IMG/VR virus record: IMGVR_UViG_3300025308_000320 | Coordinates: 1 to 43,014 of that record | Source: a virus | Length of the DNA: 43,014 nucleotides | Direction: 5' to 3' (one strand) | Shown: one piece after another, positions 7,833 to 28,772 of the stretch | Layout: each line of letters opens with the position of its first letter | Numbering within the stretch: position 1 is the stretch's first letter | Made by a program: the position numbers and the translations under genes | The notes under the pieces: generated by a model | Databases searched by the model: none | Told to the model about the DNA's origin: nothing | The model's input: only the letters and a program-made list of their open reading frames with translations

Positions 7833-8331
7833 CGCTCAATCCCTTTTCAATGACGGCAATAGCCTTGAGTCGGCCGCGGCAGGTGTCGTAACTGCGCTGG
7901 CATCTGTTGGCCCATAACCCGACATCGGCATCGGTGGCAAAGGCGGCATCGGTGCGTAAAGGTTCGCCGGGAGCCGCGGGCACGGCTGCTGGTTTGAGGC
8001 TGGCATTGGCGTTGAGCACCCGGACAACGGTGCTATCAAGGCAACGACGGCCAGTAGTAAGGCGGCGGATTGCATCGGTTTTCTCCTGTGAAAGTTGATC
8101 GCGTGCCGTTTCTTCGGCCGCGAGGCGAATCTGCAGATCGTTGGCTCGTTTTTCAGCAGCGGAGAGGCGACCAATAGCCGCCTGCGCGACGCGCGACTCG
8201 GCCGCTTTCTGGGCCGCCTTTAGGTCCGCAATCTGGGCATCCTTGCGCCAGCCCTCGACCAGCCAGCCCGCGCTGAATATCAGGGCACCAATGACAGCCA
8301 AAACAATGGCCTTGACGGTTTCGCCGCTCAT
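7825..8331 (-). CDS. Rz: inner-membrane spanin (Rz-like)
   Basis: i-Spanins span the periplasm and, with their lipoprotein partner, fuse the inner and outer membranes at the last step of lysis. This 168-residue product has an N-terminal anchor (VKAIVLAVIGALIFSAGWLV) and then a long helical region rich in Ala/Lys/Glu (residues ~30-95). The start ATG at 8331 overlaps the lysozyme stop by ATGA. A second reading frame inside the gene encodes the o-spanin (7836-8075), the classical nested arrangement, which supports the call. Confidence 0.82.
   Translation of the reverse strand: MSGETVKAIVLAVIGALIFSAGWLVEGWRKDAQIADLKAAQKAAESRVAQAAIGRLSAAEKRANDLQIRLAAEETARDQLSQEKTDAIRRLTTGRRCLDSTVVRVLNANASLKPAAVPAAPGEPLRTDAAFATDADVGLWANRCQRSYDTCRGRLKAIAVIEKGLSVE
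7836..8075 (-). CDS. Rz1: outer-membrane spanin lipoprotein (Rz1-like), nested in Rz
   Basis: In a different frame within Rz, a 79-residue product starts MQSAALLLAVVALIAPLSGC, a lipoprotein signal with lipobox LSGC (C20). The mature part is rich in proline (for example PMPPLPPMP), as in lambda Rz1. A good ribosome binding site (AGGAG) stands 6 bases before the ATG. The product should be an outer-membrane lipoprotein that pairs with Rz. Confidence 0.82.
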   Translation of the reverse strand: MQSAALLLAVVALIAPLSGCSTPMPASNQQPCPRLPANLYAPMPPLPPMPMSGYGPTDASAVTTPAAADSRLLPSLKRD

Positions 8332-9013: not shown

Positions 9014-9102
9014 GCCAAAGCGCTCCAGATAACAGCGCCGACGATGGCACCGAAGTAGATCAGCCAAAACACGCCAGCCGCAGACAGGCGGGTGATTGTC
9101 AT
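9010..9102 (-). CDS. 30-residue membrane peptide of the lysis cluster
   Basis: A very short gene with ATGA overlaps on both sides and a good ribosome binding site (AAGGAG, 7 bases before ATG). It encodes one membrane span (GVFWLIYFGAIVGAVIWSALA) with a short polar N-terminus. I do not recognise it. Position suggests a regulator or partner of the holin. Confidence 0.6.
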   Translation of the reverse strand: MTITRLSAAGVFWLIYFGAIVGAVIWSALA

Positions 9103-9281
9103 GAGCGCAACTCCTTGAATTGATCGGTCGCCAGCCAGCAAGGGTCTTGCGAATCTGAGAAAAACCGCGCCCGGTCTATTGCCTCGGGCGCAGCCTTGCA
9201 ATAGCCGTAGCCCGCCAGGCCGGATCTCGGCTTGCTGGCTTCATCTGACGACAGGAAATGTTGGCAATTGCGGCAGGTCAT
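9099..9281 (-). CDS. small Cys-rich protein, first gene of the leftward late operon
   Basis: The 60-residue product starts MTCRNCQHF and has four cysteines (C3, C6, C28, C48) that could bind a metal ion. It has no membrane span. It opens the left late operon and its ATG lies exactly 38 bases after the AAAACGTTTT dyad, with no Shine-Dalgarno sequence before it, as at the two other late operons. Family not recognised beyond similarity in style to small zinc-ribbon-like phage proteins. Confidence 0.7.
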   Translation of the reverse strand: MTCRNCQHFLSSDEASKPRSGLAGYGYCKAAPEAIDRARFFSDSQDPCWLATDQFKELRS

Positions 9282-9329
9282 GCCGGCAGATTGCCGCGCG
9301 CGCGCAAGGCGTACTCACAAAAACGTTTT
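9282..9329 (-). promoter_or_regulatory. late promoter for the leftward operon, with activator dyad
   Basis: Read leftward, AAAACGTTTT (9329-9320) is followed by 38 bases and then ATG (9281). Counting the A of ATG as +1, the dyad centre is at -43.5 and the -10 window (-12 to -7) reads CAATCT, which keeps the A at -11 and the T at -7. A small hairpin CGGCA-ATC-TGCCG sits just before the start. The same geometry occurs at 22775 and 27747. Mor is the likely activator. Confidence 0.7.
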
Positions 9330-21669: not shown

Positions 21670-22124
21670 CGCCCATCCTCACATCCCGCCTGCGCCAGTT
21701 GCGCGCCATCCGCCACAAGGCCGGCGAGCTGCTCGACGATGTCAGTTATCGCGAGATCCTGCAGCGCTGTGCCGGCGTCTCCAGCTCGACGCAGATCCGC
21801 AGCGTCGCCAAGGCCGAAGCGGTGATCGACGAGTTTCGCCGCCTCGGCATCGGAACCCCGCCACCGCGCAAGCCGCTTACGCCACAGCAAAAGAAGATCT
21901 GGTCGCTGTGGCAGAGCCTCGCCGATAAAGGCCATGTGACAGATCGGACCATGCGCGGGTTGTTAGTCTGGGTAAAACGCCAGACCGGCGTCGACGCCCT
22001 GTCGTTCATGACCTGGCCGCAGGAACGCCAGGTCACTGAAAGCCTCAAGCGCTGGCTGGCGCGAGGCGTTGATGACACGGTCAACGGCAAAAAACAGTCA
22101 AAAACGGAAAACGATCATGGCTGA
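21666..22124 (+). CDS. gemA: GemA / gp16 family regulatory protein
   Basis: The 152-residue protein has the GemA core: QQKKIWSLWQSLADKGHVTD, then RGLLVWVKRQTGVDAL and ESLKRWL. In Mu, GemA alters host gene expression and DNA supercoiling and lies just before mor, as here. It overlaps mor by 8 bases. Confidence 0.9.
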   Translation: MTPILTSRLRQLRAIRHKAGELLDDVSYREILQRCAGVSSSTQIRSVAKAEAVIDEFRRLGIGTPPPRKPLTPQQKKIWSLWQSLADKGHVTDRTMRGLLVWVKRQTGVDALSFMTWPQERQVTESLKRWLARGVDDTVNGKKQSKTENDHG

Positions 22125-22608
22125 TCTGTTCGATGCCGGCGACCTGCTGGCGCCGCTGAATGCCCAGTTGCCGGCGGGCATGCACCCAACGCATCGAGCG
22201 ATGGCCGAGGAGATGTATCTGCACCTGGCTGAGGACGAGCAGGCCGTCCAGGAGATTGGCCTTGATCGCCTGGCCGAGTTGGTTGTGGGACAGGTTGATC
22301 GCGTGGCGCAGGAAATCGGCGGCTGTTATTTCTACATGCCGAAGGGTGTCGGCATCGCGCTGTCGGCTCGGGATCGGGAAATTGCCGCTGAGTGGCGCGG
22401 CAACAACGGCCATGTCCTGGCTCGTAAATACCATCTGTCCGAGATGCGTATCGGCCAGATAATGAAAAAATGGCGCCTTGAACAGTTCGCGCTGAAGCAG
22501 AATAAATTCCATGGATCCGGTTTTGACTTACCGACCCTTGGAAAAAAAGGCGTCAAACAGCTGTCGCTGCAGCCGAATGATTTTCAGGAAACCGGCGCCG
22601 ACAAATAA
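22117..22608 (+). CDS. mor: Mor-family late/middle transcription activator
   Basis: The 163-residue protein has the Mor/C layout: an N-terminal helical dimer part (DEQAVQEIGLDRLAELVV), a strand with GGCYFYMPKG, and a C-terminal helix-turn-helix (GNNGHVLARKYHLSEMRIGQ, then IMKKWR). It is longer than Mu Mor because of a C-terminal tail (from ~residue 125). It closes the early operon. Only one Mor/C-type gene is seen, so it probably serves all three AAAACGTTTT promoters. ATG 22117 is chosen as it matches the family; the ribosome binding site is weak. Confidence 0.9.
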   Translation: MADLFDAGDLLAPLNAQLPAGMHPTHRAMAEEMYLHLAEDEQAVQEIGLDRLAELVVGQVDRVAQEIGGCYFYMPKGVGIALSARDREIAAEWRGNNGHVLARKYHLSEMRIGQIMKKWRLEQFALKQNKFHGSGFDLPTLGKKGVKQLSLQPNDFQETGADK

Positions 22609-22756
22609 GAGCGCCGGGCGATTTTTTCGGCAAAGGCGACGTCCTTGTAGCCGGATGGTGCCGTAAATCGATCCTACCCGTGCACAAATGGCTTTGTGCA
22701 CTGTTGGCAAGCCGGCGGCGAGCAGCAAAAAACAACCCCGCGAACTGGCTAAGCAT
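22553..22756 (-). CDS. possible small antisense ORF, 67 residues
   Basis: On the minus strand GGAGG stands 4 bases before ATG 22756 and opens a 67-codon frame that runs back into mor. The product is basic (AARRRLANSAQSHLCTGRI) with no clear domain. The ribosome binding site is its only strong support. The codons around SAQSHLC fall in the 9-bp inverted repeat at 22680. It could be chance. Confidence 0.3.
   Translation of the reverse strand: MLSQFAGLFFAARRRLANSAQSHLCTGRIDLRHHPATRTSPLPKKSPGALICRRRFPENHSAAATAV
22592..22627 (+). terminator. intrinsic terminator of the early operon
   Basis: CCGGCGC (22592-22598) and GCGCCGG (22611-22617) form a perfect 7-bp stem around a 12-base loop that includes the mor stop codon, followed by TTTTTT at 22622-22627. 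Confidence 0.85.
22680..22701. repeat. perfect 9-bp inverted repeat between mor and the fibre operon
   Basis: GTGCACAAA (22680-22688) and TTTGTGCAC (22693-22701) are perfect inverse complements around TGGC. There is no T run after it on the plus strand, so it is not an ordinary terminator; it may be an operator or an RNA hairpin. It does not match the 11931 operator beyond GTGC. Confidence 0.6.
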
Positions 22757-22774: not shown

Positions 22775-22822
22775 AAAACGTTTTGTTCATGCCGCCATCG
22801 CGCCCGCGCGAAAAATGCGGGC
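22775..22822 (+). promoter_or_regulatory. late promoter of the fibre/appendage operon
   Basis: AAAACGTTTT (22775-22784) lies 38 bases before ATG 22823. The -10 window (-12 to -7 from the A of ATG) reads AAAAAT. The last bases before the ATG, GCGGGC, can pair with GCCCGC a few bases upstream. No Shine-Dalgarno is present. Layout identical to 9329 and 27747. Confidence 0.75.
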
Positions 22823-23176
22823 ATGACATCAACCACTTTCGACTTGATCGGCAAGTACGCAATCGAGAAAGGCCTGCCCTGGTCTTTCCGTTGCGCCCGG
22901 TTCACCGGTCGTGCCAAAACGCCTGTTGATCTCACCGGCAGCAGTGCGCGGCTGGAAATCTATAACGCCCTGACCGGCGAGTTGGTCGCGACGCTGGACG
23001 ATTCCGCCGGCGATATCGTCCTCGGCGGCCCGGCCGGAACAGTTGATGTTGCGCTGGCCGCACAAGTGTCGGCAGGCTGGTCGGCAACGCATCTGCGCTA
23101 TCGCTTCTTCTTTACCGACTCGCTCGGCGTCGAACGGTTATTCATGCGAGGCCGGCTCGGTCTGGTCGAAGACTGA
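22823..23176 (+). CDS. BppU-N-like structural protein
   Basis: The 117-residue product is beta-rich: KGLPWSFRCARF, then TPVDLTGSSARLEIYNALTG, then RYRFFFTDSLGVERLFMRGR. This resembles the N-terminal Ig-like domain of BppU-type baseplate/fibre proteins. It opens the fibre operon. It has no ribosome binding site, in line with the leaderless model. Its exact place on the virion is not known. Confidence 0.68.
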   Translation: MTSTTFDLIGKYAIEKGLPWSFRCARFTGRAKTPVDLTGSSARLEIYNALTGELVATLDDSAGDIVLGGPAGTVDVALAAQVSAGWSATHLRYRFFFTDSLGVERLFMRGRLGLVED

Positions 23177-23595
23177 TGAGCGACGAACAGGAAATCCTGG
23201 TCATCGAGACTGCTGTTGTCGATGTCGTCGAGTTGTCAGGAGACGTCGTCGAGCTGGTCGAGGTGATCGAGCCGCAGCTCGTTGTAGTCGATCCGCCGGC
23301 AGACATTGAAGTTATCGAAATCGGAGCCGAGGTCATTGAGTTGATCGAGGTGGCCGAACAGGGGCCGGCCGGCCCCCCGGGAGGAGACCCCATGCCCTAT
23401 GCCAAGCGTGTCGACGCGGTCGGCGAATCAGTGATTTACCGCGGCGAGGCCATCCCCGGCAGCGCCGACAGCGATCCGGCCTGGCGCATCAGCCGAATCA
23501 CGATGACCGGCGATGACCTGGTCGAGCAATGGGCCAACGCCACGGCGGATTTTGTCCATGTCTGGGCCAGCAGGGAGGCGTATGAGTACATCTGA
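23176..23595 (+). CDS. fibre-like protein with acidic repeats and collagen-like stretch
   Basis: The 139-residue protein has an unusual N-terminal half of Val/Ile/Glu repeats (VVELSGDVVELVEVIE), then a collagen-like EQGPAGPPGGD, then a globular end (YAKRVDAVGESVIYRGEAIP and QWANATADFVHVW) like that of phage fibre or head-fibre proteins. This suggests a trimeric thin fibre. It overlaps the previous gene by one base and the next by 14. Confidence 0.7.
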   Translation: MSDEQEILVIETAVVDVVELSGDVVELVEVIEPQLVVVDPPADIEVIEIGAEVIELIEVAEQGPAGPPGGDPMPYAKRVDAVGESVIYRGEAIPGSADSDPAWRISRITMTGDDLVEQWANATADFVHVWASREAYEYI

Positions 23596-23803
23596 GTATT
23601 TATTACCCGAGGTTGCGACGGTCGAGCGGCTGCGCGATTACCTGGAATGGCATGTCCAGAACGGACGCGGCTCCATGTGCATCGCCATTGATCCGCGCGG
23701 CCTGTCCTACCTGACCGAAAAGCGCGACGTGCGCCTGGCGCTGCCATTTGAAGATGAGGGCGGCCATGATGGTGAGCGAGTCTTCGTGCGAGCGGTGTTT
23801 TGA
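23582..23803 (+). CDS. small hypothetical protein of the fibre operon
   Basis: A 73-residue product with a good ribosome binding site (GGGAGG). It has a helix (VERLRDYLEWHVQNGRG) and an acidic end. No family recognised; probably an accessory of the fibre genes. Confidence 0.62.
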   Translation: MSTSEYLLPEVATVERLRDYLEWHVQNGRGSMCIAIDPRGLSYLTEKRDVRLALPFEDEGGHDGERVFVRAVF

Positions 23804-23816
23804 CCGGAGACCGTAA

Positions 23817-24191
23817 ATGACAACCTGGACTGTACAGAATCGAGAAACCGGTGAAGTCGTGCATGCCTACACTGCCGACGCGGTGAGCCATGCCGATATT
23901 TACCCGTTCGATACCTACAACCACATTCCGCAGCCAGTGGTTGTTGAGGTGGTTGTGCGCGAGATTTCCGGCATAGCGTTCCTGCGCCGATTCACCCAAG
24001 CCCAGCGCATCGCTATACGTGATTTGGCAAAAGCTGTTCCAGAAGTTGATGACTTCATGCGTCTACTTGACGCGACGATTGCGCAAGGCGGGATTGTCAA
24101 TCTGGACGACCCTGACACCATCGCAGGCGTTAACGCACTGGCTATTCTGCTGCCAGATAAAGGGATCGCTCCAGCGGAGATTCTAGCCTAA
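23817..24191 (+). CDS. hypothetical protein, fibre operon
   Basis: The 124-residue product starts MTTWTVQNRETGEVVHAYTA and has a helical centre (FTQAQRIAIRDLAKAVPEVD) and end (LDDPDTIAGVNALAILLPD). The centre resembles a short domain found in small tail or capsid-neighbour proteins of other phages. It shares one base with the next gene. Confidence 0.68.
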   Translation: MTTWTVQNRETGEVVHAYTADAVSHADIYPFDTYNHIPQPVVVEVVVREISGIAFLRRFTQAQRIAIRDLAKAVPEVDDFMRLLDATIAQGGIVNLDDPDTIAGVNALAILLPDKGIAPAEILA

Positions 24192-25741
24192 TGGCAACCG
24201 TCTATTCGCTGGTCTGCTGGGGCGGCAAGGATGGCAAAGCGGTTACTGTCAGCTCGTCCACCGATTTGGTGACGCTGACCAATCACGGATGCCGCAATGG
24301 CAAAGGACTGCAGTTCGCGTCCGGCACCTTGCCGACCGTCGCCGGGGCGGCGCTGGCGCTCAACACAACCTATTTCGCCAAGCGGGTCAGCAGCAGCACC
24401 TTCGAGCTTTACTACGAATCGTCGCTGACGACAAAGATCGATTTCACATCGACCGGCTCAAGCCTGGTGATGAAGGGAGCCTACTACCAAGGGCTGACTG
24501 ATACCAGCCGGTGGGGCACGCGGATTTACGACGGACGGGTGGCATGGAATGCGGCTCGTGCTGCTGCATCGACGGTATTTGATACTGAGGTATGCGAATT
24601 CGGCGATGACTACGACGACCTTGTGGGCGCGTCATTTTCAGTTACCGTGCCCTGTGCGTCGCTGATCATGACCTCGTTGGTCAATGGCGTTCGCGGGGCC
24701 GGGTGGCATGGCGGCATCAAGGGGGCCGGCTATGTGTCGATGGTGCCGAATGGTGGCTACACGGCAATGTCTCCCGGAAATATTCAGGACGCGACTTTCG
24801 ACGGTTTTAGTTGCACGGTGTTATCGACATCTGGGTCCGGTACGGCATTGGGAACATCGGGGCGCGGTGGCAATGTCGTCAAGAGCATGATCTTGAGCGG
24901 GATCAGCACAAGTTTCGGTTTCGGTTTGGCACTAAATGGTGCGATGACCAAGGTGCTGAACTGCCTGATCACAGGACTGCTGCGCGGCGTGGCGACAGGC
25001 TCATACACCTACGGCTCCCTGTGCGCCAACAATACCGTCGTCGGCAACGGAACAGGCATCTACGCGGAAGGGTCCGGCGCATCGACCTATGGCAAGTGGT
25101 ACAACAATGCAGTTTTCGGCAACACCTCAAACTGGTCGCGGGCAGCGCCAGCCGGCGTTGAGGGGGCATCCAATAACACCGGCGAGACAGTCGATGCGAT
25201 TGACCCGTGGGCGGTAGGCGCTGGCGCAACATCAATCGACATCACCAGTGCGGATTTTGTCAATTACGCAGGCGGTGACTTCCGGCCCGCATCTGCATCG
25301 TCGCTGCTCACCGATGCCGGCACCGACTACTACGGTCGACTCGGATTCGACCTCGCTGATGGTGAGGTGCCGAACTATAACAACGGCGGTGCTGAAGGTA
25401 TCGACCTGGGGTGTTTTGAGTTCGATTACGGATATGGGCCGCACCCAACATTGACGGATTTCACTTTCGCCGTGAAAGACGAATCCGGCGGAAATGTCAT
25501 CGATTTCGAATATCGGCTCTATCTCAAAGACCCCGCTGCCGGGATCATCGGCTCGACCGAGCTAGACGGCGCGGAAAACTATGCATCTTCGAGCCGTACT
25601 TGGCAGCACGGCTATTCGAGCAATACCGATGTCGTCCTGCAGATCATCAAGGATGGCTATGAAGAAGCGCTGGTCGAATACATCCTGAACACAACCCCGC
25701 TGACCACCACGGTCTATCTGGCGACCGAACGAAATATCTAA
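24191..25741 (+). CDS. beta-helix appendage/tail-spike-like protein
   Basis: The 516-residue protein is rich in Gly/Ser/Thr/Asn. Residues ~150-320 show the short repeating turns of a right-handed beta-helix (GNGTGIYAEGSGASTYGKWY and NNAVFGNTS), as in phage spikes and pectate-lyase folds. It ends with an Ig-like region (DFTFAVKDESGGNVIDFEYR). No catalytic residues are evident. It may bind host sugars or form an appendage on the particle. Confidence 0.72.
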   Translation: MATVYSLVCWGGKDGKAVTVSSSTDLVTLTNHGCRNGKGLQFASGTLPTVAGAALALNTTYFAKRVSSSTFELYYESSLTTKIDFTSTGSSLVMKGAYYQGLTDTSRWGTRIYDGRVAWNAARAAASTVFDTEVCEFGDDYDDLVGASFSVTVPCASLIMTSLVNGVRGAGWHGGIKGAGYVSMVPNGGYTAMSPGNIQDATFDGFSCTVLSTSGSGTALGTSGRGGNVVKSMILSGISTSFGFGLALNGAMTKVLNCLITGLLRGVATGSYTYGSLCANNTVVGNGTGIYAEGSGASTYGKWYNNAVFGNTSNWSRAAPAGVEGASNNTGETVDAIDPWAVGAGATSIDITSADFVNYAGGDFRPASASSLLTDAGTDYYGRLGFDLADGEVPNYNNGGAEGIDLGCFEFDYGYGPHPTLTDFTFAVKDESGGNVIDFEYRLYLKDPAAGIIGSTELDGAENYASSSRTWQHGYSSNTDVVLQIIKDGYEEALVEYILNTTPLTTTVYLATERNI

Positions 25742-25750
25742 GGAGCAATC

Positions 25751-27229
25751 ATGGCAACCATCGACCTCGATACCGCCGGTAATCTGGCCGCGTCCCAACT
25801 CAAAGAATCGACGAACCCGCGCGGATCGTCGCCCGACGGTAATGTCTATTTCGACCTGGTCAGCGGAGAAATCCAGATCATCACCGCCGATGAGCTGGCG
25901 ACGGTCGATTTCGGCGGCGGCGCCATTGCCAATCCGTTGATCGACGAAGGTGGCGCTGGCGGCGGCATTACCGCGCGGGCGCTTTACAAGTTCGAGCGGA
26001 TGAGCCGCGCGGCCAACGAAACTTTGCGCAAATACGACAAGTTCATGGTCGGTTCGTACAAGTTCGCCGGGGCCTATGAAATGGCGAATGGGCGAAAGAT
26101 TGCCAGCGCTGACATCAAGAAGCTGCGCGCTACCGGCATGGTCTGGCGATCGGCGGCCGGGGCGGTCAATCGCATCTACTTTGGCGCGCGCTCTCTCGGC
26201 AATGTCGAGGCGACCAGTCAGGCGTACTATCAACTTACTGCAGGCGGCGCCCCGGTCAATTTCTCCTACCCGGGCGCGGTCGATGAAATGATCCAGGTGT
26301 TCGGCTCGACGGCCAACGGGGACGTCGGTGCCGGCAACTTCGACAGCCGCACCTATCTGGCGCTCAGCCTGCGCACGTTCGGCAAGGTCCATGACCGCAA
26401 GGTGCTGTCCGATTCCGGCATCATCATCATGGACGGCTTCTCGGCAGGATTCGCCCTCGGCGAGGCCAATCACCTGACCACCGGAAATTACGCGCTGGCT
26501 GACGTCTATGGTGGCTCTGCCATCGCGCCATTTACCGGGATGTCGCTGGAAAAACTGGCCTCTCCGCAAAACGAAACCGGATTCAACGAGGGTTCAGGTG
26601 ATTTCACCTGGGCGCTAAACAACGCCGCCGGCGCGACCCTTGACCAGTGCGTTGCTTATCTGGACGCGCTCGCGGCGACCGACAACGACATCGACACCGG
26701 CGCCGGCGTCACCAATGGCAAGCGTGTCGGGACGTGGTACAGCTACGATGCGCAGGGTCGCATCGTCACACGCTCGGGGGCTGACGGTAACGGTTTATTG
26801 ATCGAGGGTCTGATCGGCGAGGACAAGCAGCGCATCGTGCAGACCACCGACGCCGGCACTGCCCGTACCTATCCTTTTTTCCCGACTGTGATCGTCGATG
26901 TTGGTGATAACGCGCGTTCCGATGGTGCCGCCTGGGGCCATGTGTATTTCAAGGACGGTCCGGGCGCCAACGATTTCAACACGGCGAACGCCGTTACGGT
27001 GCAGGACAAGAATAGCGCCAGCGTGAAAGGACTGATCAGCGGCGCCAACATCGTTTTCGAGTTTCCCTTCGACACGGATACGCTCGGCGGGGTCGCCGGT
27101 ACCAACAAGGTCTGTGTAGTTGAGGTTGAGGGCAACGGCGTCGCGACGGCCGCCAAGACGGAATTCACCATCACCCGCACGGCGACGATCAACGTGTCCT
27201 GTCAGCCCGGGCTGGAAACGAACCTTTAG
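25751..27229 (+). CDS. large structural protein of the fibre operon
   Basis: A 492-residue beta-rich protein (KFERMSRAANETLRKYDKFM near residue 85; QAYYQLTAGGAPVNFSYPGA near 160) without signal or membrane span. A ribosome binding site (AAGGAG) stands before the ATG. It probably makes part of an appendage, but I do not recognise the family. Confidence 0.68.
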   Translation: MATIDLDTAGNLAASQLKESTNPRGSSPDGNVYFDLVSGEIQIITADELATVDFGGGAIANPLIDEGGAGGGITARALYKFERMSRAANETLRKYDKFMVGSYKFAGAYEMANGRKIASADIKKLRATGMVWRSAAGAVNRIYFGARSLGNVEATSQAYYQLTAGGAPVNFSYPGAVDEMIQVFGSTANGDVGAGNFDSRTYLALSLRTFGKVHDRKVLSDSGIIIMDGFSAGFALGEANHLTTGNYALADVYGGSAIAPFTGMSLEKLASPQNETGFNEGSGDFTWALNNAAGATLDQCVAYLDALAATDNDIDTGAGVTNGKRVGTWYSYDAQGRIVTRSGADGNGLLIEGLIGEDKQRIVQTTDAGTARTYPFFPTVIVDVGDNARSDGAAWGHVYFKDGPGANDFNTANAVTVQDKNSASVKGLISGANIVFEFPFDTDTLGGVAGTNKVCVVEVEGNGVATAAKTEFTITRTATINVSCQPGLETNL

Positions 27230-27237
27230 GCACCGGT

Positions 27238-27735
27238 ATGCCACTGATCGCTTCGATCAACGGCGCGACGCGCAGGGTCTATCTCGACCCTGCCGCGGTC
27301 GTTGAAGGTGTTCTGACGTTTCACCCGACCGTCGATCTCTATCCGGATTACAAGTCGCTACGCGCGGCTGATGAGTCTGTGCGCCCGTTCGATGCCTTTC
27401 TCGAAGCCCGCGGAAACGAACCCAAGAACCTCGATGGATCGAAGCGCACGCCGCGCTACACTCGCCTGCTTGGCGGTACCAAGATTGTCATCCCGGCCGG
27501 CGTGACACGCCTCAACGTTACTGGCGAGCTGCTGTCCGACGATGGCTCTGATCCGTTCGACCGCAGCCTGATCACCGGCGCCTGCATCATTGACTACACG
27601 CCACCGGTTGCCGAAATCATCCGTGTGACGATCACGGGTAACGAATACACGCTCACCCAGATCGCGGCAGCCATCTGGGCACACCCTTTCGTTTCAAAGC
27701 TGCTCACCGTCGCCAAATTCCTCGGTCTGAAGTAG
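27238..27735 (+). CDS. hypothetical protein, last of the fibre operon
   Basis: The 165-residue product has YPDYKSLRAADESVRPFDAF and GGTKIVIPAGVTRLNVTGEL, beta-rich and probably structural, and a more hydrophobic C-terminus. Similar small proteins occur beside beta-rich phage structural genes. It ends 11 bases before the next late dyad. Confidence 0.65.
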   Translation: MPLIASINGATRRVYLDPAAVVEGVLTFHPTVDLYPDYKSLRAADESVRPFDAFLEARGNEPKNLDGSKRTPRYTRLLGGTKIVIPAGVTRLNVTGELLSDDGSDPFDRSLITGACIIDYTPPVAEIIRVTITGNEYTLTQIAAAIWAHPFVSKLLTVAKFLGLK

Positions 27736-27746
27736 CACAAAAACCA

Positions 27747-27794
27747 AAAACGTTTTAGCCAGCCATTGTTCGCGCGCCCGCGAACAATGCGGGC
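27747..27794 (+). promoter_or_regulatory. late promoter of the head-tail operon
   Basis: AAAACGTTTT (27747-27756) is followed by 38 bases and then ATG 27795. The -10 window reads AACAAT. GCCCGC and GCGGGC form a 6-bp stem just before the ATG. No Shine-Dalgarno. Same geometry as the other two late promoters. Confidence 0.78.
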
Positions 27795-28772
27795 ATGCCT
27801 ACTGCAAAAACACTTCCAGACCACATCGAAATATTCCGCGCTGGCCGGCAGGTCGATGACGCAGGGAATACTCACGATTTCACCGAGGCGGACGTCGCGG
27901 CCATCGCCAGCGGCTACAACACAGCCCTGCGCGAAGCGCCGCTAACGGTTGGCCACCCGGCCAGCAATCTGCCGGCCTATGGCTGGGTCAAGGGCCTCGG
28001 CGCCGCTGCCGGCATATTGACCATGAACCCACACCAGGTCGAGCCGCAGTTTGCCGAGATGGTTGCATCCGGCCGCTTCAAAAAGCGCTCTGCCTCGTTC
28101 TATCCGCCCACCTCTCCGAACAACCCGACGCCCGGCCGCTGGTATCTGCGCCACGTCGCGTTTCTCGGTGCCCAGCCGCCGGCCGTCAACGGTCTCAAAG
28201 ACATTCAGTTTTCCGAGGGTGACGCTGCCGGCGCCATCTCGTTTTCCGAAACCGCCATCACTCAAAAGGAGATTCTGATGGATGAAGAAACCAAGAAGCA
28301 ACTGGCCGAAACCGCCAAGCAGCGGGATGAAGCACTTGCTCAGAAGGCCTCGGCCGACGCCGAAGTCGTCAAGGCGCGTGCCGAGCTGGCTCAGTTTGCC
28401 GAGGCGCAGCGTCAGTCTCGTCATGCGGCGCATGTCAGCTTTGCTGAGGCCAGCGTCAAGGCCGGAAAGCTGCTGCCGAAGGACAAGGAAACCGCCGTTG
28501 CTGTGCTCGATCAGCTTGCCGAGTCGCAGCCGGTCGAATTCTCCGAAGCCGGCGTCGCCAAGAAGGTCGCACCGGCCGAGTGGTTCAAGGGGCTGATCGA
28601 AGGCGCCAAGCCGCTGGTTGAATTCGGCGAATTTGCCGGTGGCGATACCGGTGGCGAATCGACCAAGGGCATGTCCGATGCCGACATCGACAAGCGTGCC
28701 AAAGCTTACGCGGCTCAGCACAACGTGAGCTACTCCGAGGCTCTTTCCAAGGTCGTGAGCTTCACGTCCTGA
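27795..28772 (+). CDS. prohead protease with scaffold domain (Mu gpI-like)
   Basis: The 325-residue protein has a protease part (residues ~1-155), with TVGHPASNLPAYGWVKGLG (possible active His in GHP), FKKRSASFYPP (possible Ser) and LRHVAFLGAQPPAVNGL, as in Mu gpI. The C-terminal half is a Lys/Glu/Ala-rich helical scaffold. It opens the rightward head-tail operon. A nested start for the scaffold alone exists at 28278. Confidence 0.9.
   Translation: MPTAKTLPDHIEIFRAGRQVDDAGNTHDFTEADVAAIASGYNTALREAPLTVGHPASNLPAYGWVKGLGAAAGILTMNPHQVEPQFAEMVASGRFKKRSASFYPPTSPNNPTPGRWYLRHVAFLGAQPPAVNGLKDIQFSEGDAAGAISFSETAITQKEILMDEETKKQLAETAKQRDEALAQKASADAEVVKARAELAQFAEAQRQSRHAAHVSFAEASVKAGKLLPKDKETAVAVLDQLAESQPVEFSEAGVAKKVAPAEWFKGLIEGAKPLVEFGEFAGGDTGGESTKGMSDADIDKRAKAYAAQHNVSYSEALSKVVSFTS
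28278..28772 (+). CDS. nested scaffold protein (Mu gpZ-like)
   Basis: Within the protease frame ATG 28278 (MDEETKKQLAE) is preceded by a strong AAGGAG 7 bases upstream, so a 164-residue scaffold should be made separately, as Mu makes Z from within I. The product is a coiled-coil-rich protein expected to guide capsid assembly and then be cut. Confidence 0.78.
   Translation: MDEETKKQLAETAKQRDEALAQKASADAEVVKARAELAQFAEAQRQSRHAAHVSFAEASVKAGKLLPKDKETAVAVLDQLAESQPVEFSEAGVAKKVAPAEWFKGLIEGAKPLVEFGEFAGGDTGGESTKGMSDADIDKRAKAYAAQHNVSYSEALSKVVSFTS

Follow-up and report, generated by a model that had tools for sequence, protein, structure and literature searches.

The 43,014-nt stretch of viral DNA analysed here (the window) encodes the transposase and transposition ATPase of a Mu-like phage and contains three sites that, as judged from the sequence, are very likely Mor-dependent late promoters at which transcription starts at the A of the first gene's AUG, yielding leaderless late mRNAs. 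In the proposed mechanism, a dimer of the single Mor-family protein of the phage would bind a dyad centred at -43.5, the host sigma70 RNA polymerase would use a weak nACAnT-type -10 element located at about -12 to -7, and the first transcribed base would be the A of the AUG or a neighbouring one. The late mRNAs would enter translation via this 5'-terminal AUG rather than via a Shine-Dalgarno (SD) sequence. A GC-rich repeat around the -10 element, lying upstream of +1, would fold only in readthrough RNA coming from upstream genes (mor, the repressor side or the preceding late operon), and in such RNA it would mask the AUG.

The dyad AAAACGTTTT, a contiguous 10-bp palindrome, occurs exactly three times in the window (9320-9329 on the minus strand, 22775-22784 and 27747-27756 on the plus strand), against a mean of 0.03 copies expected from dinucleotide shuffles, and its sole one-mismatch copy (41594) lies within a gene. 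Each of the three copies is followed on the correct strand, after exactly 38 nt, by an ATG, which places the centre of the dyad at -43.5 when the A of this ATG is taken as +1. The leftward lysis/terminase/portal/minor-head operon is headed by a gene for a Cys-rich protein of 60 amino acids (9099-9281, minus strand), the rightward protease/scaffold/capsid/tail operon by the head maturation protease gene (27795-28772, plus strand), and a second rightward late operon by a gene of phrog_1084, a family of unknown function (22823-23176, plus strand); in all three the ATG lies at the predicted +1. Anti-SD pairing energies before these ATGs are 0.1, 0.1 and -1.7 kcal/mol, compared with a median of -6.6 kcal/mol for control genes. 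The palindrome, the fixed spacing before the three operons and the missing SD sequences had been reported in the preliminary description of this DNA and all stand. Its statement that the spacers differ is too simple: the three spacers contain a common GC-rich CGCGCxCGCG stretch, end in GCsGGC directly before the ATG, and harbour an inverted repeat flanking the -10-like hexamer, which had been overlooked. This repeat has the form GCCCGC-N7-GCGGGC at the protease (27776-27794, plus strand), where it adjoins the ATG and carries the hexamer AACAAT in its loop (27783-27788), and GCCCGC-N9-GCGGGC at the second rightward operon (22802-22822, plus strand; AAAAAT, 22811-22816), also adjoining the ATG, while at the leftward operon CGGCA-N3-TGCCG lies just 5' of the ATG (9284-9296, minus strand; CAATCT, 9288-9293). 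At the protease promoter only, a longer alternative stem seen in a long fold, CATTGTTCGCG/CGCGAACAATG (27766-27791), overlaps the -10 element and the repeat.

The third late unit (22823-27735) lies between mor and the protease gene and consists of genes without a Pfam match, which are probably tail genes. It appears as an insertion by comparison with the relative L014, where mor directly precedes the protease gene; no relatives of the protein encoded at 22823 were found in viral contigs. Between mor and the next late promoter, at 22680-22701, lies a near-perfect dyad, GTGCACAAA..TTTGTGCAC, a candidate terminator or operator that is kept in L014 at about 8036-8057.

The presumed dyad binder is the product of the mor gene (22117-22608, plus strand), which matches PF08765 (E 4.7e-17, 62.4 bits against a cut-off of 24.9) and has a PDB match to the late activator C. 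Mor and C proteins are known to activate late transcription in Mu-like phages, and in most relatives a mor homologue (PF08765) is the gene directly upstream of the protease. At the Mu promoter Pm, a Mor dimer occupies a dyad (-51 to -36) centred at -43.5 from the mapped start (PMC4287176; PMC4390567). The centre at -43.5 given in the preliminary description is confirmed for the window sites and equals that of the Mor dyad on Pm relative to the mapped start (PMC4287176). It is very unlikely that transcription starts at the ATG with the dyad being bound by another phage protein or by a host protein, as the geometry is that of Mor on Pm, mor adjoins the promoter in most relatives and its family has the activator role described above. 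Such a binder would nevertheless fit the finding that the recognition helix of Mor and the dyad covary no more than is expected from overall relatedness, covariation between the two not being detectable (partial Mantel r -0.04, p 0.70). Phages with similar Mor proteins do tend to have similar dyads (r 0.34), yet the same holds for an unrelated upstream stretch (r 0.33), so that no claim is based on this correlation.

Relatives of the protease were gathered from viral contigs and bacterial genomes, and 34 non-redundant, mostly betaproteobacterial protease promoters were placed in a gap-free alignment anchored on the ATG. The absence of the spacing from close relatives had been regarded in the preliminary description as a refutation of its model, but the spacing is present: the nearest relatives, L014 (AAAATGTTTT) and L016 (AAAGGCCTTT; spacing counted by hand), and L020, with the AAAACGTTTT dyad itself, all have the dyad exactly 38 nt before the protease ATG. 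L016 also carries AAAGCCCTTT, 38 nt and an ATG before the homologue of the window gene at 9281 in its leftward operon. About 30 further relatives have other dyad sequences with the centre at or near -43.5; in some of these the arms are spaced, as in L113 (CTTTTAA-N6-TTAAAAG). Thus, across the 34 promoters the sequence of the dyad varies, yet its symmetry and position are kept. In 8 of the 34, the best palindrome is centred at -43.5, compared with a mean of 0.5 and a maximum of 3 in 300 shuffles, and the half-sites form 122 complementary pairs against 83.6 +/- 7.4 when they are swapped between phages, a value reached in none of 5000 permutations. Since the protease promoters share ancestry, these sequence counts overstate the number of independent events; the half-site permutations, the sites outside protease promoters and the distinct dyads lessen this effect but do not remove it. 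The distance from dyad to ATG is constant although the N-termini of the proteases vary in length. A scan of the whole of IMG/VR for AAAACGTTTT-N35-GGCATG returned only unrelated, mostly AT-rich contigs with one match each; exact patterns miss relatives because the dyad sequence is phage-specific.

The alignment further shows a -10-like nACAnT hexamer near -12 to -7, with C at -1 in 31 of the 34 promoters and A at +1 in all of them, as in a normal initiation site; the hexamers themselves are poor -10 elements, which is a point against the proposed start. All 34 genes begin with ATG, which is partly by construction owing to the anchoring, unlike the position of the dyad relative to the ATG, and no case with GTG or TTG was met where the layout is present. 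In 30 of the 34, this ATG is the only ATG, GTG or TTG codon before the conserved IE[IV]F block, and the window protease likewise has no alternative start codon before its IEIF block. Because no other start codon precedes the block, transcription starting at the ATG would entail leaderless translation.

The lack of an SD sequence extends to the whole collection: none of 60 such ATGs has one of -4.5 kcal/mol or better, compared with 71% of 55 control genes from the window and phage Bise (p 2e-16). With DMS3 added to the controls, the first codons prove to be A/C-rich (A+C 0.76 against 0.60) and the start regions G-poor and weakly folded (minimum free energy -4.2 against -8.3 kcal/mol at equal GC), points that are partly dependent owing to protease homology. 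CA-rich starts have been reported to favour leaderless translation (PMC9031893).

The ATG could in principle reflect mainly a preference of the promoter for initiation at C-1 A+1 T+2, with real translation starting downstream. Two enteric relatives, L122 (2562) and L092 (1903), keep the repeat and the ATG at +1 and have an SD-led start 22-26 nt downstream, so a gene does not necessarily begin at an ATG found at +1; positions +1 and +2 are also AT in several leadered cases (ATT, ATC). As a general explanation this is highly improbable, given the 30 of 34 proteases that offer no other start codon before the conserved block, and a G at +3 that is invariable in this set but absent from the other leadered promoters. 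In L122 and L092 the ATG at +1 opens a short ORF overlapping the SD-led lysis gene and is a possible 5'-terminal upstream AUG. Leaderless translation is usually weak in Proteobacteria, and its use for abundant structural proteins is odd, though only the first gene of each operon would need it.

A natural control for a leaderless versus a leadered start is provided by L020, where two AAAACGTTTT promoters have a common core. The protease promoter ends in GCGGGC followed directly by the ATG, whereas in the second promoter CCGCCTC is followed by ATT and then by CCCACTGGAGGTTGAT-ATG, giving a 19-nt leader with a GGAGG SD sequence.

The inverted repeat is a frequent companion of the ATG. In 34 of 60 late promoters, a perfect stem of 5 bp or more ends no further than 4 nt from the ATG, but such a stem precedes only 6% of random ATGs and occurs in 9% of shuffles. 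Its arms covary, with 102 pairs against 77.3 +/- 6.3 and no equal in 5000 permutations, while nothing comparable appears at neighbouring centres. The late promoters of the set without an ATG at +1 lack it altogether (0 of 7, Fisher p 0.004), and the repeat therefore goes with the AUG and not with promoter activity. MazF-type cleavage at ACA as a source of leaderless mRNA was dropped, as many loops contain no ACA.

The covariation of the arms is what an RNA hairpin would produce, and the loops are A-rich. Both features suit a model in which transcription starts about 20 nt further upstream, the mRNA opens with the hairpin, the hairpin and AUG together form a translation element, and the dyad acts as an operator. 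This is unlikely, since the dyad would then fall at about -24 relative to the start, a position that differs from that of the Mor site on Pm, and the region from -32 to -20 shows no conserved -10-like signal in the alignment of 34 promoters. Moreover, the leadered sibling in L020 (6738) breaks the repeat yet retains the promoter, and Pasteurella AFS-2018a has a clear TATTCT where the geometry of Mor predicts it (counted by hand).

A role for the repeat that agrees with a start at the AUG is suggested by leadered Mu-like phages. In KP12, Komp_PAO1_1, AFS-2018a and Photorhabdus prophages the right arm adjoins the AUG, while the left arm either precedes the predicted start (partly counted by hand) or spans it, and for the Mu I gene the S1-mapped start, as deduced from the oligonucleotide design in PMC4461284, falls close to where the left arm ends. 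A similar arrangement is found in T4 genes e, soc and I-TevI, whose start-codon hairpin has its left arm in front of the late start, so that only readthrough RNA is silenced (PMC3014915). The repeat described here shares with that of T4 gene e its position next to the start codon and a left arm preceding the predicted start, and by analogy may have a silencing role; T4 late mRNAs, however, keep a leader and an SD sequence, while in the phages described here +1 can fall beyond the entire repeat. It is conceivable, with the balance tilting slightly towards doubt, that Mu-like phages in general gate late translation by hairpins split by the promoter. The AUG would be silenced in readthrough RNA, only Mor-made transcripts starting inside or downstream of the repeat would be translated, and in the largest group the start would have moved onto the AUG itself, making the mRNA leaderless. 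Such silencing would explain L122 (2562) and L092 (1903) only partly.

The cultured transposable phages D3112, DMS3, JBD30, B3 and Bise of P. aeruginosa, among them standard laboratory phages, share the layout of the window before the protease gene, but their annotation does not record it. The succession of dyad, spacer, repeat and ATG was identified before both late operons found in D3112, DMS3 and Bise: Bise has CTAAAGCACTTTA and CTAAAAGCCTTTA dyads, and D3112 and DMS3 have TTGAACCCCTTC dyads with the GC repeat and ATG both after mor and at the protease. B3 contains three TTTTCGG-N4-CCGAAAA dyads, only the protease one having an ATG at +1, which speaks against the proposed reading; the three dyads match the three late clusters seen by RNA-seq, at less than base resolution of 5' ends, in Fc02 of the B3 family (PMC9936078). 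Directly after mor, an unannotated ORF of 115 amino acids with the leaderless layout is present in D3112 (L130, 10749-11096) and DMS3 (L133, 3225-3572); the lysis operon probably begins with this gene. The annotated protease starts look incorrect in B3 (L124, 14992, an upstream CTG) and in D3112 (L130, 19793, a downstream ATG); in both, the ATG following the repeat is favoured as the start by homology and by the layout of the promoter. In the D3112 record that ATG is out of frame with the annotated protease.

In Mu, Pm serves not the late operons but the middle operon, to which the C gene belongs; C is a paralogue of Mor. Here, unlike at Pm, one Mor-family protein appears to drive the late operons directly, with the AUG at +1. 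The window promoters resemble Pm in the Mor-family activator, the dyad centre, the weak promoter elements and the use of host sigma70 polymerase (PMC4287176, PMC4390567), but the dyad is contiguous in the window and consists of two 5-bp arms within 16 bp on Pm. With the C-activated Mu promoters Plys, PI, PP and Pmom they have in common the late operons for lysis and protease/capsid. In contrast to the layout proposed for the window, leaders and SD-like sequences precede the sampled Mu genes lys and I; for I, a leader of about 25 nt can be deduced from the oligonucleotides of PMC4461284. The cI transcript from lambda PRM is likewise a phage mRNA starting at the AUG without an SD sequence (cited in PMC9031893); it differs in serving a single regulatory gene instead of structural and lysis operons, and in its activator. 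No earlier report of leaderless late mRNAs in Mu-like phages was found in the open-access literature.

Enterobacteria are considered to have few leaderless mRNAs (PMC9031893). The promoter layout indicates that the start codon probably forms the very 5' end of the late mRNA in this phage and in dozens of relatives, in contrast to the situation known from Mu. If so, D3112, DMS3 and similar phages would open their main lysis and capsid operons with leaderless mRNAs, and gene starts would have to be corrected in reference phages, namely the D3112 and B3 proteases and the unannotated first gene of the lysis operon in D3112 and DMS3. Nature would then also have supplied a collection of leaderless start regions under strong selection, for which leadered sister promoters can serve as controls, and the 5'-AUG pathway would have a use during infection.
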